Source: a virus. Taken from it: 21,923 bases of DNA. A program made the translations under genes and the position numbers. The stretch lies in the IMG/VR virus record IMGVR_UViG_3300032275_000621, positions 1 to 21,923 of that record. One strand, 5' to 3'. The notes under the pieces were generated by a model. It saw only the letters and a list, made by a program, of their open reading frames with translations. It ran no database searches and was not told the DNA's origin. Shown here in pieces: positions 162-6,503 of this stretch (position 1 is its first letter; every line of letters starts with the position of its first letter).

Positions 162-219
162 ATAAAGCGCATGAGATATGAGCTTTACAGTTTTGAGTTC
201 TTATTCTTTTGAGGGCTTG

Positions 220-272
220 AAAAACAGGGAATCAATTGACAGAATTCCTTATAAGCTTTTTCCCTGTTTTTT
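220..272 (+). terminator. Terminator-like hairpin
   Basis: An 11-bp perfect stem, AAAAACAGGGA (220-230) with TCCCTGTTTTT (261-271), encloses a 30-base loop. The right arm ends in a T run (266-272). It lies about 60 bases after the possible end of the upstream gene, so it may terminate that transcript. Because the T run is inside the stem and the loop is long, it is not a textbook intrinsic terminator. Its arms could equally make it the first member of the hairpin field that follows. Confidence 0.45.
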
Positions 273-419
273 GAGACCGAGAAAAACCGGGGAGTTTGGG
301 GGTGGAAGCCCCCAAGTCAACTGACAGAATACCGCTTATGAGTTAGGGCAATCATCACTGAATATTCACTGAATACTCATGAGCATTCATTGAGGAACCT
401 TCAACCGGGCTGGAAGCAC

Positions 420-470
420 GGGCGGCCACTAAAGCTTGTGCAGGGGGTCACTGGATGTGACTGGCCGCCC
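420..470. repeat. Isolated stem-loop GGGCGGCCA/TGGCCGCCC
   Basis: A perfect 9-bp stem, GGGCGGCCA (420-428) with TGGCCGCCC (462-470), encloses a 33-base loop. It is the first strong GC-rich stem of the array. The bases just after it (CATCTCCTAACCCC near 495) recur near 2066 beside the family D hairpins, so it belongs to the same repeat field. Confidence 0.5.
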
Positions 471-544
471 AGCAGCGGACTTTCAGGGAGCAGACATCTC
501 CTAACCCCCTTCCTTGCTCACCGCAGGTGCGCTGTTGAATCCCC

Positions 545-797
545 GTCAACCCCAGTGGCGCGGCTTGTGCCTTTTTTTTGCACAAGGCGTGACACCTACC
601 CCCAACGTCGCTCAGCACCTGGACCCCTATCCGCCGCTTTTTAAACAATCCTTTATTAATAAAACTTTCAGACTGCCCTGACCGTGGCCTGTTCCCTCAA
701 CGTATAGACAGCGCATAGCCGTGCCGGAAAACAGTAGTTCATACACCCGCCCGTCACACAGCGCCGACGATCAGCTTTTTGATGGTCGGCGCTGCAT
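545..797. repeat. Long composite repeat, copy 1 (hairpin A + conserved linker + hairpin B)
   Basis: Copy 1 carries, in order: the family A hairpin (CTTGTGC 564-570 / GCACAAG 580-586, loop CTTTTTTTT); a linker containing GCTTTTTAA then CAATCCTTTATTAATAAAA; TGCCGGAAAACAGT (722-735); CGCCCGTCAC; and the family B hairpin (760-773 with 780-793). The second copy at 998-1235 has the same modules in the same order at about 65-75% identity by eye. The B stem has 13 of 14 pairs with a single G.G mismatch (769/784), and the mismatch is retained in copy 2. Confidence 0.75.
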
Positions 798-838
798 GCG
801 CCACAGCCAAGTTTCCGCGTTCCCGTCCTTCTCCCGGT

Positions 839-1812
839 GCTTCGGGTACCGCTTTTCGCGGTTCCCGAAGCAGAGCCATCCGCGCCCAGTAAGCACTTCA
901 ACAGGTTTTGAAAACAGTTGGGGTGGCGGGCGGGCATTGTCAGATAATGCTTTTATCCGCTTCTGGCTTTTCGTCCTGGGACTTCCTGTCAAGCTTTCAA
1001 CCCGCTTCCAGTGGCGTGACCCATGCGGTTTTTTTGCATGGGGCATGCCACCAACTTCCATGTGTCGCGTTCTCCTGTTCTCGATTCCGTCGCTTTTTAA
1101 TCAATCCTTTGTTAGTAAAAACCTCTTGTTACCCCCAAAGTTGCCGGAAAACAGTTTGACAACAGTTCAGTTTGTCCCCGTGTTCACCTGCCCGTCACCC
1201 GGCAACGATGATCGGCTTTTTGATGATCGTTGCCGCACTCCTCAGCCCGCGCCTCCATGTTCCCGTCCTACGTCTCATGCCACCAGTTACCGCGGCCCTT
1301 GCGCGGTATCTGGCGGCACGCTCGTCATGTTCACAATTTTTTTTGCTTTTGTCATCGCACTTGCAAAGAGGTCGATTGCAAGTACGAGATATTTCTCTGC
1401 GTCGGGATTCGTGCTTTTGGGCACGAATCCCGTGAGCACGTACCGCGCGTTCACAGTTTTTTGCTTTTGTCATTGCAGTTGCACACGATTTCATTGCAAC
1501 TGCAAAATAGCTCCTGGCGTCGGGTACCGTGCTTTTGGGCACGGTTCCCGTAAGCTCGCACCGGTCGTGGCGGTGTTTTTTTCTGGATCCACCTCTGCCC
1601 CATGGAGCGGGATTCGCGCTTTTGTGCGCGAATCCCGTGAACACGTGCTGTACGTCCAGTGCCGTCTTTTGTGCTGGTGCTGTTTTGTCTTATGGAGCGG
1701 GTGCCTGGCTTTTGGGCCTGGCCGCCGCGAACACGCACTGGATGTCCCCGTATTTCTTCTGTTCTGTTCTTCGGGCCATGTGAACGGGTACCGAGCTTGT
1801 GCGAGGTTCCCG
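839..1812. repeat. Family C hairpins, seven copies
   Basis: Members: 839-871, 1283-1313, 1403-1432, 1521-1550, 1608-1637, 1698-1727 and 1785-1812 (the last two weaker). Stems of about 12-14 bp commonly begin CGGG and close on a TTTTGG-type loop. Two subtypes exist: a perfect one (CGGGATTCGTGC / GCACGAATCCCG) and one with a single internal T.T mismatch beside ACCG/CGGT (839, 1283, 1521 and probably 1785). From 1403 on they recur every 87-118 bases. They are followed by a half-conserved box like CGTGAACACGTG, then CGTCCAGTGCCG and TTTTGTGCTGG. Loop conservation with paired stem change argues for a folded element. Confidence 0.7.
998..1235. repeat. Long composite repeat, copy 2 (hairpin A + conserved linker + hairpin B)
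   Basis: Copy 2 of the 545-797 unit. The A hairpin pairs CCCATGC (1020-1026) with GCATGGG (1036-1042), plus an outer GTGGC/GCCAC (1012-1016 / 1047-1051). The linker has GCTTTTTAATCAATCCTTTG and GTTAGTAAAA, then TGCCGGAAAACAGT, then TGCCCGTCAC. The B hairpin pairs 1200-1213 with 1222-1235 around loop GGCTTTTT. The B stem sequence differs from copy 1 at many positions, yet both arms changed together and the G.G mismatch (1210/1225) is kept. Confidence 0.75.
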
Positions 1813-2640
1813 TGAACACGTGACACATGTCCAGGGCCGTCTTTTGTGCCTGTGCTGGTGTCTGTGCTGGTGCTTGTGCTTTTGCTTGTGCGTCCAGTCA
1901 ACACAGAAAATCGCCTAGGCGCTCCCCGGCTTTATGGGGTGCGCCGTTTGAACCACATAGCGGGCAGCCCGGCTGTTTTCTCGGCGCTTCACAATAGAAC
2001 ATCGCCTAGCCGCTCCCTGGCTTTTTAGGGAGCGGCTGGCCAGCACTGAACGTCCAACCATTGGCCATCTCCTAACCCCTTTCCTTCCGCGTTTTGAATG
2101 AAGGCGTCGCATAGAAAATCGCCTAGGCGCTCCCGGGCAGTATCGGGTGCGCCGATCTGCACTGCATGTCGGACTGCGCCGTGGTTTTTCCTTCCCGAGT
2201 TTTCAGAAAGGTTGTCGCATAGGCGCTCCCTGGATTTTCAGGGAGCGCCGCAGTGCACCGGCCGTCACTGCTTTTGTTTTTCTTCCGCCGCTCCAAAAGG
2301 TCGCCTGTACACCGCTCCCGGCAGTTTGGGTGCGCCTGAAAGCTGCGGCCACATGCTTGTGCTTGAGCTTTTAGGCTTTTTTATCGGAACACCCCTCAAC
2401 CAGCTCGGGAAAGTCGCCTAGGCGCTCCCGGGCTGTATCGGGAGCGCCGGAGCGGTTTGACCGGGCGGGGTATCATGCACAATCGTGACGCCTGCACGGC
2501 TTTTGCTTTTGGGAGCCCCTGGGGGCGGACGGGCGATCTGCCAGGAAGGTTATGCGGAGAGATCAAACAGGTCGCGTAAACCTTGGGGCAAGAAGACATA
2601 ATGCGTGTTATGTCTAGTGGAGTGAGGGCAGGTTTTTGGG

Positions 2641-2670
2641 CTGCGTGCTGCGGTTTTTTGCAGCGTGCAG
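2641..2670. repeat. Hairpin CTGCGTGCTGC / GCAGCGTGCAG
   Basis: Left arm 2641-2651 pairs with right arm 2660-2670 (11 pairs, two of them G.T) around loop GGTTTTTT (2652-2659). The loop matches the family A type. It sits directly before the perfect palindrome at 2681-2710, in the one long gap of the family D array. Confidence 0.6.
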
Positions 2671-2680
2671 ACCAAAAAGC

Positions 2681-2710
2681 CACGGCTGATAAGAGCTCTT
2701 ATCAGCCGTG
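2681..2710. repeat. Perfect 30-bp palindrome
   Basis: CACGGCTGATAAGAG (2681-2695) is followed without a spacer by its exact reverse complement (2696-2710). A zero-loop palindrome differs from every other stem in the region, which all have 6-10-base loops. It could be a dimeric protein site (operator, resolution or packaging site) or the centre of a cruciform. Confidence 0.75.
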
Positions 2711-3159
2711 CCGAACGGAACGACTTGACCCAAGGTTTTAAGCGGCCGGTCGCAACCCGTGAAAGTCCATAGGAACCAAGTCACCCGGCGGGCGGGGGAT
2801 CAAACTGACAGAATACCTTATTCCTCTGCTTTTTCGTCCAGGATGCTTCTCACGCCAGCTCGGCGCGGCTGTAAGGGTCTCCCGGCAGTTTGGGAGACCC
2901 TGGAAGTCGCAGGCCGGGCGGGTTCAGAACTCAGGATATCCGCATGCAGGCTTTTTTTTGCTCTCCGCCTTAACCAGCTCGGCGCGGCTGATAGGCGCTC
3001 CCTGGCTGTATAGGGAGCGCCGTTAAGTCGTGACGGGCGGTGGATCAAAGCTTCGGCCTCGGCATACAGGCTTTTCTCGTGGTATTCCTCAAAAGGTCGT
3101 CTGTAAAACGCTCCCTGGCTGTATAGGGAGCGTTTTACTCATTCTGACCGGAAGCCTTG

Positions 3160-3195
3160 CCGGCGGGGCTGTATTTTTCAGCAGGCTCCCGCCGG
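3160..3195. repeat. Family E hairpin, copy 1
   Basis: CCGGCGGG (3160-3167) pairs with CCCGCCGG (3188-3195), with an inner GCTG/CAGC pair around TATTTTT. It is followed by AAGGCAGTCCTTTTCG. It lies between family D members at 3103 and 3237 and matches the copy at 3422. Confidence 0.65.
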
Positions 3196-3421
3196 AAGGC
3201 AGTCCTTTTCGCGTCACCCCTGAAGAACGTCTGTTAGGCGCTCCCACCAAGCTTGCTTTGTGGGAGCGCCGACACACACACTGACAGAAGACCAGCCGGG
3301 CGGTGCTTTTTTCCGCACGGAGGGCAGTCCCGTTCCAGGCCGACACAAAAGGTCGTCGCATAGGCGCTCCCGCCAAGCTTGCTTTGCGGGTGCGCCGTAG
3401 CCAGCACAAAACAAAGTCCTG

Positions 3422-3459
3422 CCGGCGGGGCCTGTGTTTTTCAGCAGGGCTCCCGCCGG
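3422..3459. repeat. Family E hairpin, copy 2
   Basis: CCGGCGGG (3422-3429) pairs with CCCGCCGG (3452-3459). The inner part reads CCTGTGTTTTTCAGCAGG, close to copy 1. It is followed by AGGGCAGTCACTTCCG. It again lies between two family D hairpins (3363 and 3501), so D-E-D is itself a higher-order repeat of about 265 bases. Confidence 0.65.
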
Positions 3460-3727
3460 AGGGCAGTCACTTCCGATCCCCTCAATAGAACATCGCCGAA
3501 GCGCTCCCGCCAAACTTGTTTTGCGGGTGCGTGCAGGCGCACTCCGTCCCCGTCCTTCAGCACACCCATGGTGCGCTCCCTGGCTTGTTCTTTTCTTCTG
3601 GTCGCATCACCTCAATAGAACGTCGCCAAAGCGCTCCCCGGCAGTTTGGGGAGCGCTTTGGCATTGCTTCCCCACGTCCAGGTCATGGTTTTTGCTGTTG
3701 CTGTTGCGTTAGGGGGGCTGAAGGGAA

Positions 3728-3753
3728 GTCTTCGGCGGCTTTTTGCCGAAGAC
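3728..3753. repeat. Hairpin GTCTTCGGC with GGCTTTTT loop
   Basis: A perfect 9-bp stem, GTCTTCGGC (3728-3736) with GCCGAAGAC (3745-3753), encloses exactly the loop GGCTTTTT (3737-3744), the same loop as the family D hairpin at 2008-2037 although the stem is unrelated. Confidence 0.65.
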
Positions 3754-3759
3754 CGGAGC

Positions 3760-4005
3760 GACAGCGGAGCCGGAAGACAACCGACGGCGTCAGCCGGAAC
3801 GCTCAAAGGCAGAAACTCAGGTAATGCCAATACCAGTATAAGACGAAACACCAACACCCTGGGATCATCAACCACATCCGCCACCACCAATACCCCCACA
3901 CCCACACAGGGGCGCTAGCGGGGAAGCATAAAAACAACAATACGCCGAGCCGCCACAGCAGTGCGGGTGCTTTTGCTTTTGTTTTTGCCCGGCGAGCCAC
4001 CCAAA
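3760..4005. other. A/C-rich spacer inside the array
   Basis: From about 3780 to 3920 the + strand is rich in A and C with repeated ACCACC/CACCAA/CCCACAC words, unlike the GC-hairpin text on both sides. No stem as strong as its neighbours is seen. A frame through it would encode Thr/Asn-rich low-complexity sequence without a start signal, so I do not call a gene. Around 3965-3990 there are TGCTTTTGCTTTTG repeats. Confidence 0.4.
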
Positions 4006-4400
4006 AGAGTAGCGGCGCGGCCTTTGCTGGCTTTTTTGCAAAGGACGTGTCGCCAGCCACGCCGTCAGGTCGCGTCACCGCATAGGCGCTTCAACACCAA
4101 AGGACGTTTTATTCACTGAATGTGCAGTCAGTCACCATCAAATTGGCCTTTATCCGCCAGCAGATATGGCAAGCAACAACCAAATGAGTAGCGGCGCGGC
4201 CCTTGCGGCTTTTATGCAAGGGGCGTGACGCCTACACCTCACGAGAGAGGTTGCACCATCAAATATCAAATGCTTTTATCCGCTTCGTGGTGGAGCCGAA
4301 GGCGACTCCAGGAACAAACTACCGGGCTTGCACCAAATGGCCCAGCGGCGCGACCCTTGCGGTTTTTTTGCAAGGGGCGTGACGCCTGCTCCTTCCGTTC
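4005..4400. repeat. Family A hairpins, three further copies
   Basis: CCTTTGC (4021-4027)/GCAAAGG (4038-4044), CCCTTGC (4200-4206)/GCAAGGG (4216-4222) and CCCTTGC (4354-4360)/GCAAGGG (4370-4376), with loops TGGCTTTTTT, GGCTTTTAT and GGTTTTTTT. All share an upstream AGCGGCGCG and a downstream GACGTG/GGCGTG then CGCC, which adds an outer pairing GGCG/CGCC. They are homologous to the family A hairpins at 564-586 and 1020-1042. After the 4200 copy, AATGCTTTTATCCGCTTC recurs from near 947 (18 identical bases). Confidence 0.7.
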
Positions 4401-4833
4401 AGGTTGCATCCATGGTACATCATGTGGAGCTGCACCCTGGGCTTCTCACGAATCCATCCGGTTTGTCATAGCTACCCACTTTACATCTAACATCATCAAT
4501 CATCAACCATTGACATTTCACGCCTTTCCGCTTTTTTTTTTCATTTTTCATGTCATTTTACCCTCATTTCATGTCAAAAATGGGTCCTTTCCACTCATTC
4601 AAATCCATACGGGTGCCCTACTTGCACCACTCCCCCAGATTGCCTTGTTTTTTCATTATAACCGATAAGTTACCATCTTAACCGCCCCCCTTGAAAGCAT
4701 CGGATATTCGCAAATATCGCACTTCCTTCTTCCTGCACACAAAAGCCCCTTTTCCCTGCATTTTAAGCGAATACTGCGAACTGTGTACGGTGCTCAACTT
4801 GCGTCCCTGAAAAAATCCTGCATTATTATCGCC
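4400..4833. other. Pyrimidine-rich gene-free leader before gpW
   Basis: The last part of the non-coding region has no strong hairpins. 4490-4660 is rich in T and C on the + strand, with CATTTCA/TCATTTTT words. I see no convincing sigma70-type promoter with correct spacing, although a late promoter would be expected upstream of the head genes. An operator-like palindrome lies at 4703-4718. A T/C-rich leader could be a transcription-factor or Rho-utilisation region; this is speculation. Confidence 0.35.
4703..4718. promoter_or_regulatory. Operator-like palindrome GATATT-CGCA-AATATC
   Basis: GATATT (4703-4708) and AATATC (4713-4718) form a perfect inverted repeat with a 4-base spacer, 116 bases ahead of the gpW start. 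It could bind a dimeric regulator of the late operon. GCGAATACTGCGAA (from 4767) resembles a half-site cluster. No regulator gene is in the window. Confidence 0.3.
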
Positions 4834-5067
4834 ATGCCACAGACCCTAACAGAGTTGAATACATTACTTGCTGCTGTAGACGAAGCCATTGCGAACTTGA
4901 TGTCGGGCGAGCGCGTCATCCGCATTTCAAACGGTGAACGCATGGCCGAATATGGTCAAGCCAAGCTCGGGGATTTACAGGATTACAAGTCCAGCCTCAT
5001 AGCGGAGATAAACGCCTTGAACAGCAGACCACGACACTTCCGAATATCTACGAGCAAGGGGGTTTAA
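4834..5067 (+). CDS. gpW-like head-tail connector protein
   Basis: A 77-aa protein matching the lambda gpW family in size (68 aa in lambda) and layout: an N-terminal helix (TELNTLLAAVDEAIANLMSG), a beta hairpin (ERVIRISNGERMAEYGQA), a second helix (LGDLQDYKSSLIAEINAL), and an Arg-rich tail. gpW stabilises the filled head and forms the ring onto which the tail connector is built. I prefer ATG 4834 because a GTG start at 4783 would add 17 residues absent from the family; neither start has a good Shine-Dalgarno. Its stop overlaps the portal start (TAATG), as expected for the lambda order A-W-B. Recognition is from motif pattern, not a search. Confidence 0.8.
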   Translation: MPQTLTELNTLLAAVDEAIANLMSGERVIRISNGERMAEYGQAKLGDLQDYKSSLIAEINALNSRPRHFRISTSKGV

Positions 5068-6503
5068 TGGCCTATCTGAAGATATTGGATGCCTCTGGCC
5101 GCAAGATCCGCGCTTATACCGCTTTTGAGGGTGCGGGAAACGGCCGGCGCCTGTCGAACTGGGGCACATCCACGTCAGGGCCGAACAGCACACTGTACTC
5201 ATCCCTCGGGAATCTCCGTTCCCGGTCCCGCGAACTGTCGCGTAATGATCCCCAGATATGCGGGGCACTTGATTGTCTGGTATCCAATATTGTCGGGATG
5301 GGAATTTCCCCCCGGTGGCAGCTTGCCGACTCCAAGCTCAAAAAGAGGCTGCAACAACTCTGGTCGGACTGGACGCAGGAAGCGGACGCAGATGGGCTGC
5401 TTGATTTTTATGGACTCCAGGCGCTTGCTGCCCGGTCGATCATCGAATCCGGAGAGGTTTTCATTCGGTTTTGCCCGAAGCGCTCGGGAAAAGGGCTTAT
5501 GGTGCCGCTGCAATTACAGATACTGGAAGCCGATCACCTGGACCACAATTACAATACGATTGCCCCAAACGGCAATGAAATCCGCATGGGTATTGAGTTT
5601 GATAAGACAGGTCAACGCAAGGCGTACTGGATGTTCCGGGAGCATCCAGGGGAGACTTTCCTGACCAGTGTTCACCCATATGACCGGATTCGGATTCCGG
5701 CACCTGAGATACTTCACGCATTCCAGCCGCTTCGCCCTGGGCAGCAGCGTGGGCGGCCGTGGCTCGCTTCCCTGATCCTGACCATGCACGAGCTGAACCA
5801 ATTTAATGACGCCGAGCTGGTACGTAAAAAAACAGCAGCCATGTTCGGGGGGTTTATCACACAGCCTTCGGAAGAAGGCAATATGCCCCCACTCTTTGGA
5901 AACGAGGGGGATGCGGATGAAACCGGTTCCCCCGTTATCCAGATGGAGCCAGGCACGTTTCCATCGCTTCCTCCCGGATACAATGTCACGTTTTCGGAGC
6001 CGGCGGATGTCGGCGGCAATTATGGTTCTTTTGTCAAGCATCAGGAGCAGCGGGCGGCGCGGGGGATCGGCGGGCTGACTTATGAAAAGTTTACCGGGGA
6101 TCTGTCCGGAGTGACTTATTCCTCTATCCGGGCCGGAAACCTCGAATTTCAACGCCAATGCAAGCAGTTTATTTTCAATGTCATGGCATATCAGATATGC
6201 AGGCCGGTTGCCAGGTATTGGCTTTCCCAGGTTGCGCTGTCGAATGCCATGCGCTTGCCGGGATATGCAAAGGACCCGAAATCTTACATGCGGATCAAAT
6301 GGACGATTGACGGCTGGCCGTGGGTTGACCCCCTTAAGGACTTGAAGGCGTCAACCGGTCTTGTCCGCTCCGGGTTTTCTTCCCGGACCCAGGAGGTGGC
6401 TGAGCGGGGATTGGACGTTGAAGCGCTTGAGGAAGAAATTCAGGCCGATAATGAGCGGGCGGATGCGGCTGCCCTGGTGTTTGATTCGGACGCAAGGCCG
6501 TGA
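5067..6503 (+). CDS. Phage portal protein, lambda gpB family
   Basis: This 478-aa protein would form the dodecameric portal ring at one capsid vertex through which DNA enters and leaves. The N-terminal part has the family signature RSRSRELSRNDPQICGALDCLVSNIVGMGI (cut here by context; residues ~50-80), followed by LQLQILEADHLD (~152-163) and GIEFDKTGQRKAYWMF (~175-190), then the clip/stem region with VRKKTAAMFGGFI and the ARGIGGLTYEKFTGDLSGVTYSS motif (~335-357) typical of the gpB-type portals. ATG 5067 is preceded by AAGGGGG and overlaps the gpW stop. The length is close to lambda gpB (533 aa), somewhat shorter. It is followed by the prohead protease, the canonical order. Confidence 0.95.
   Translation: MAYLKILDASGRKIRAYTAFEGAGNGRRLSNWGTSTSGPNSTLYSSLGNLRSRSRELSRNDPQICGALDCLVSNIVGMGISPRWQLADSKLKKRLQQLWSDWTQEADADGLLDFYGLQALAARSIIESGEVFIRFCPKRSGKGLMVPLQLQILEADHLDHNYNTIAPNGNEIRMGIEFDKTGQRKAYWMFREHPGETFLTSVHPYDRIRIPAPEILHAFQPLRPGQQRGRPWLASLILTMHELNQFNDAELVRKKTAAMFGGFITQPSEEGNMPPLFGNEGDADETGSPVIQMEPGTFPSLPPGYNVTFSEPADVGGNYGSFVKHQEQRAARGIGGLTYEKFTGDLSGVTYSSIRAGNLEFQRQCKQFIFNVMAYQICRPVARYWLSQVALSNAMRLPGYAKDPKSYMRIKWTIDGWPWVDPLKDLKASTGLVRSGFSSRTQEVAERGLDVEALEEEIQADNERADAAALVFDSDARP

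Follow-up and report, generated by a model that had tools for sequence, protein, structure and literature searches.

A covarying, gene-free hairpin array upstream of the head genes of a lambda-type phage and its relatives in phages and bacterial genomes

The hairpin array of the window

The DNA described here is a 21.9-kb virus record (IMG/VR IMGVR_UViG_3300032275_000621; 21,923 nucleotides), referred to below as the window. It carries a lambda-type head module with gpW, portal, S49 protease and capsid protein E, in which the gpW-like head–tail adaptor gene (4834–5067, + strand) and the portal gene (5067–6503, +) are preceded by a stretch, 166–4780, that a first-pass annotation of the sequence had described as a gene-free array of about 29 hairpins between the terminase position and the head genes. 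Gene-free kilobases are rarely kept by phages. A strict scan for symmetric Watson–Crick stems found 16 strong hairpins in this stretch, compared to a mean of 0.2 and a maximum of 2 in 30 dinucleotide shuffles, and to 0–1 in coding chunks of the same length. A laxer Watson–Crick scan gave 23, and inclusion of the bulged GGCGCG..CGTGACGCC type makes the earlier count of about 29 reasonable. The extent had to be narrowed, however: the hairpins occupy approximately 420–4390, while 4400–4780 is a conserved, mostly unstructured end module. The terminase position was likewise correct only in part. In the four relatives that have both terL and an array, terL does lie upstream, but replication, toxin–antitoxin-like or unknown genes intervene; the window itself stops short of terL.

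No match to Pfam or PHROG was found for the open reading frames (ORFs) tested in the array. Compared with two related phages, L006 and G001, most insertions and deletions have lengths that are not divisible by three, and the substitutions in two of the array ORFs lack the codon periodicity that is strong in the portal gene. Protein coding was rejected on these grounds, and the array is indeed gene-free.

All of the following elements are on the + strand. The recognisable array starts with a large bulged hairpin (GGGCGGCCA..TGGCCGCCC, 421–469) with an inner GTCAC/GTGAC stem, within the first long stretch (421–517) that is homologous to the G019 and G003 arrays. Bulged hairpins of a second kind, denoted D4 (GGCGCG..stem-TTGC/U-rich loop/GCAA..CGTGAC), are found at 557–593 and 1011–1051 (loop ggttttttt) and again near the other end at 4013–4054, 4193–4229 and 4347–4383. 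The hairpin scan also picked up two members of the D17 family (CAGCGCCGACGATCA/TGATGGTCGGCGCTG), at 759–794 (loop gctttt) and 1200–1235 (loop ggcttttt), and a hairpin TGCTTCGGGTACCGC/GCGGTTCCCGAAGCA at 838–872. A family CGGGATTCGTGC/GCACGAATCCCG and its relatives cover 1403–1637 (1403–1432, 1521–1550 and 1608–1637), with a hairpin TTGCAGTTGCA/TGCAACTGCAA in their midst at 1473–1505. The CTCCC family forms two blocks. Block 1 (1896–2469) gave covariance-model matches at 1896, 1987, 2104, 2200, 2289 and 2399, with example stems at 2008–2037, 2222–2249 and 2421–2448, and block 2 (2853–3679) has stems at 2874–2901, 2994–3021, 3103–3138, 3237–3270, 3363–3396 and 3625–3662. Between them lies a module of about 300 nucleotides (nt), the core (2511–2804), which is approximately 80% conserved in array phages. 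Block 2 is followed by a module kept in nearly all compared arrays (3690–3807), which includes a hairpin GTCTTCGGC/GCCGAAGAC (3728–3753) and also occurs in G010, there without the hairpin families. The conserved 3' end of the array (AAAAATGGGTCCTTTC..GGTGCCCTACTTGCACC..CCCCCAGATT..CATTATAA, 4576–4662) is common to the phages and the bacterial genome G241 and, less closely, to another, G153; judged by eye, it contains a GG-N10-GC spacing like that of a sigma-54 promoter.

Tests across arrays were done with 179 strong hairpins, and the largest family, CTCCC, was aligned as 56 units. In this family, the GCGCTCCC/GGGAGCGC pairs are constant, while the outer pairs that lengthen the stem are variable and covary strongly: mutual information for pairs eight to eleven, counted from the loop, was ≈1–1.35 bits, with shuffle maxima of ≈0.3–0.4. 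Between the window and its near relative L006, 10 pairs are altered on both sides and still paired, while 5 are broken; the corresponding numbers for G001 are 9 and 5. The observation that the stems differ yet remain paired was thus borne out by the mutual information and by the double changes relative to L006, and the array has the conserved, covarying secondary structure characteristic of large non-coding RNAs. Sequence comparison also showed the repeat families, the flanking boxes and the U-rich loops (GGCTTTTT, GGCTGTAT, GGCAGTTT, GGCCCTTG) to be real. T makes up 51% of the array loops and A 7%. T-T, A-G and G-A mismatches recur across units rather than being mended, and a T-G juxtaposition is found beside the A-G mismatch in 18 of the 56 units. 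The matches to the CTCCC model all have the same orientation as the late genes, except for one weak match. Hairpin spacing across the arrays is irregular (median 115, quartiles 77–185). A pseudoknot between loop and 5' box was examined by eye and dropped.

Related arrays in phages and bacterial chromosomes

A search with the portal gene yielded 22 loci. At least seven related phages in IMG/VR, belonging to one lambda-type temperate group, have an array upstream of gpW and portal: L004, which is near-identical to the window, G001/L005, G002/L006, G003/L007, G005/L009, G012/L017, G014/L019 and G019/L024, together with near-duplicate records. The IMG/VR records L007 and L008 (67 and 44 kb) have identical match coordinates over the array, so record counts overstate the number of independent arrays. 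The arrays are 4–8 kb in size, with about 48 hairpins in the two largest. The gap between terL and gpW is ≈17.5 kb in G003, 14.8 kb in G014, 10 kb in G019 and 9.3 kb in G005, the last joined across contig ends on the assumption that the record is circular or permuted. Four relatives (G008, G015, G017 and L023) have no array, and the portal tree requires two changes of array state. While the portal is 84–98% identical among the related phages, the arrays differ greatly. Their block order is nevertheless shared by phage and chromosomal arrays: hairpins, core, hairpins, the 3690–3807 module, D4 hairpins and the 4576–4662 end. The description of the locus as a previously undescribed, head-to-tail array of covarying hairpins with homologues elsewhere therefore held. 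The first-pass annotation had named a lack of covariation, transcripts and homologous arrays as the outcome that would count against it; covariation and homologous arrays were both found.

Among 57 proteins pooled from four phage records were an integrase, an S24 repressor, RecT-like proteins, exonucleases and Holliday junction resolvases, and from the integrase and repressor the array phages look temperate. A 92% identical portal occurs on a contig of a Desulfobacteraceae metagenome-assembled genome, and the host is probably a Desulfobacterota-type bacterium, as judged from binning. Defence-like genes adjoin the 3' ends of some arrays: HEPN/Toprim_N in L007 (2891–6923), PDC-S14 DUF4357 in L005 (2225–6627), and Hma-like DUF499/DUF1156 genes with an AAA/HEC-01A-like gene in L077 (627–10544). 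Just past the 3' end of the array, two phages and G241 have remnants of one small gene (AFNxAVIDLAxSxRYF..HFHSAQ; L005 1717–2007, L077 10952–11083 and L007 2279–2377), with an open copy in L005 alone. Searches with this small ORF of L005 gave no match in Pfam or among named phages, and IMG/VR yielded no second intact copy.

Arrays were also found outside phages. BLASTN against 390 genomes of the putative host order located array pieces on two contigs of G241, one among PAS/histidine-kinase signal-transduction and housekeeping genes and the other upstream of an Hma-type operon. The CTCCC covariance model, which was also run on 58 relatives of G241, matched only this one of the 390 genomes, exclusively inside the arrays. 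In G153, the conserved 3' end occurs twice, both times close to a contig end, once with array-like hairpins and once adjoining a MerR and VIT/VWA gene pair; this genome probably carries an array as well. No phage is visible around the arrays of G241 and, probably, G153, and thus they are not restricted to phages.

The core module and its bacterial counterparts

The core measures 160–300 nt and contains three hairpins. In the window (+ strand), a left inverted-repeat arm of about 24 bp (2570–2592), which bounds the invertible part, is followed by hairpin 1 (AGACATAA-TGCGTG-TTATGTCT, 2594–2615), hairpin 2 (2633–2678), which has a U-rich loop and conserved internal mismatches and is of the D4 type, hairpin 3, a perfect palindrome of 30 nt (CACGGCTGATAAGAGCTCTTATCAGCCGTG, 2681–2710), and the right arm (2724–2747). 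Changes on both sides were seen at 17 of the 36 predicted pairs of the consensus fold. In G003, the segment between the inverted repeats is flipped, with both flanks in the original orientation. This precise inversion shows the core behaving as a mobile or invertible unit, and from the sequence comparisons it is best seen as a separate unit of this kind lodged within the array.

Homologues of the core occur in about a dozen Desulfobacterota genomes. At nearly all bacterial loci with readable flanks, a CHC2/Toprim primase gene is followed by two tyrosine recombinase genes, and the core is located approximately 200 bp further downstream, past the second recombinase gene and on the opposite strand. 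Several of the loci adjoin RHS-tip sequence. In G147, a core homologue lies beside a tyrosine recombinase gene. BLASTN was more effective than the covariance model in finding such homologues: the core model matched 2 of 297 genomes in a search that was insensitive, with few candidates scored per genome, and one of the two matches was to HP2-like hairpins situated at the ends of genes, not to a true core. In IMG/VR, the 24-nt centre of hairpin 3 was present exclusively in array phages, and no copy of the palindrome was found in GTDB genomes. The primase of the element was not found in the array phages searched, and a primase search in G241 and G147 returned only matches of housekeeping length; a complete element bearing the core was thus found in neither genome.

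The trio of primase (≈875 amino acids) and two tyrosine recombinases adjoins RHS-tip sequence in L079 (144–4862), L080 (6246–10888) and L081 (3799–8491), and the copies in L080 and L081 are near-identical repeats of more than 4 kb. It looks like a mobile element of RHS tips, going by its gene content and position; a literature search for such a trio at RHS tips found no description. The core would thus tie the array to an apparently undescribed primase–recombinase mobile unit at RHS toxin tips.

Interpretation of the array

Kinship with GOLLD, ROOL or other Rfam families was not supported: covariance models, including those of GOLLD, ROOL, HEARO and OLE, gave no gathering-level match in the window and its relatives, and the best E-value at a relaxed threshold was 0.69. 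Like GOLLD and ROOL, the array is a large, structured, non-coding phage element, but those have a single fold of several hundred nucleotides (PMC12286853), whereas the array consists of 4–8 kb of repeated hairpins. A tRNA array was discarded after a tRNA scan of the window came up empty. BLAST of the array against named phages and plasmids returned nothing. CRISPR was rejected because the units vary in length and sequence and their spacing is irregular. Integron attC sites were rejected since the RYYYAAC/GTTRRRY box pair was present at the feet of none of the 179 hairpins and the array, being non-coding, has no gene cassettes. These features also set it apart from the integrase-less attC clusters of phages (PMC9892861), which it resembles in being a cluster of hairpin sites near accessory genes. 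A literature search found no description of such a hairpin array; subscription papers and preprints were mostly outside its coverage. Every family tested failed on a defining feature; it is quite possible, though, that the array is a new kin of the repetitive extragenic palindromic (REP) sequences considered below.

We tentatively favour the reading, with a probability of about 0.4, that the array is a structured non-coding RNA of giant size, in which one type of hairpin is displayed many times over. Its working form would be the + sense single strand, most likely an RNA transcribed toward the head genes. Such an RNA would present a few types of hairpin in tens of copies, with a bulged or mismatched stem, a U-rich, A-poor loop and conserved flanking boxes, and might serve as a multivalent platform, either sponge or scaffold, for an RNA-binding factor of the phage or host. 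The embedded core would form an invertible unit of its own, akin to the non-coding sequence that flanks the primase–recombinase element. This reading draws on the excess of hairpins over chance, the covariation, the orientation of the CTCCC family, the T-rich loops, the recurrent mismatches and the shared block order. It also draws on the stem mismatches, in which G-T outnumbers A-C by 29 to 8, hinting at single-stranded action of the + strand; the binomial P of 0.0008 would hold for independent events, but these counts are from related copies. Several other observations weigh against an RNA. Promoter matches in the array region are at chance level (2 found, 2.5 expected), and local folding energies show no consistent difference between the + and – strands. 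The structured phage RNAs known to us are far smaller than 4–8 kb. Phages without an array carry the same head module, so the array is dispensable at least in them, and the flipped core of G003 also counts on this side. The more specific proposal, that hairpin-array RNAs of 4–8 kb, with tens of copies of a specific protein-binding hairpin and an embedded invertible module shared with the RHS-tip element, make up a class of their own in phages and chromosomes, is slightly less probable. A fast-changing array with a conserved plan, found also on chromosomes, suggests either a large RNA of a kind not known before or a novel mechanism by which palindromes are amplified and kept paired.

The main rival is that the array is palindromic DNA akin to REPs or bacterial interspersed mosaic elements (BIMEs), which is only a little less credible than an RNA. 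Unequal recombination, assisted by RecT, would multiply hairpins at a single tolerant locus where they do nothing for the phage, and their near-perfect stems would be upheld by template switching at quasi-palindromes during replication. Such switching is able to create and fix stems without selection (PMC8794818), and could explain part of the paired-stem signal; RecT-like annealing proteins, exonucleases and resolvases are present in the phage gene sets, and the strong divergence of the arrays beside a conserved portal fits as well. Repair would, however, be expected to remove the mismatches that recur. The array also shares with REPs a make-up of repeated, non-coding palindromes of 20–40 nt with mismatched stems and G-T pairs, but REPs carrying a GTAG or CGTC tag, including REP doublets forming hairpins (REPINs) and BIMEs, prefer head-to-head dimers (PMC3733652), whereas the array lies in one locus, is uniformly head-to-tail, and has longer, covarying stems and a multi-module order that, like the 3' end, is conserved across phages and chromosomes. 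Tagged REPs were rejected: GTAG was found within 10 nt upstream of 6 of the 179 hairpins and GGAG of 4, and although CGTC flanks 22 of the 56 CTCCC units on the 5' side, there is no consistent terminal tag. No Y1/RAYT transposase was found among the 57 phage proteins scanned, a search that did not extend to host genomes. Nor is the CTCCC family dispersed in the manner of REPs, being present in 1 of the 390 genomes and there only inside arrays, whereas D4-type hairpins are scattered, with about 7 copies each, in G088 and G528 (L099, L105, L106–L111). In G088, two of these lie within a CATTCCCG..CGGGAACC-like palindrome resembling a CGTC REP.

It is unlikely that the array is a platform of single-stranded DNA hairpins for site-specific recombination or priming, with the core as the site of a tyrosine recombinase or primase and the array hairpins aiding the exchange of accessory genes. 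What speaks for such a platform, namely the primase and recombinases, often at RHS tips, beside nearly all readable bacterial copies and the precise inversion in G003, concerns the core alone. The arms of hairpin 1 around its 6-bp centre presumably resemble those of Xer/dif sites and CTXphi-type attP(+), which we take as a lead only. Inverted repeats likewise flank the core, which in bacteria lies near tyrosine recombinase genes; its recombination is putative. Array edges do adjoin accessory genes (PDC-S14 and HEPN-Toprim in phages, the Hma-type operon in G241), but these junctions are only putative recombination sites, and since the junctions in L005 and L007 have remnants of the same gene, the cargo may simply be old accessory genes. 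The absence of attC boxes, of the element primase in the array phages searched and of a Y1 transposase among the scanned proteins also argues against the platform. Finally, an array of terminators insulating the head operon from accessory or early genes would fit the position, the T-rich sequence and the 18 terminator-like consensus sites (7.5 expected), but is largely refuted, as a U tract directly follows the stem in only 2 of the 179 strong hairpins on the + strand and 8 on the – strand, and the T runs sit in the loops.

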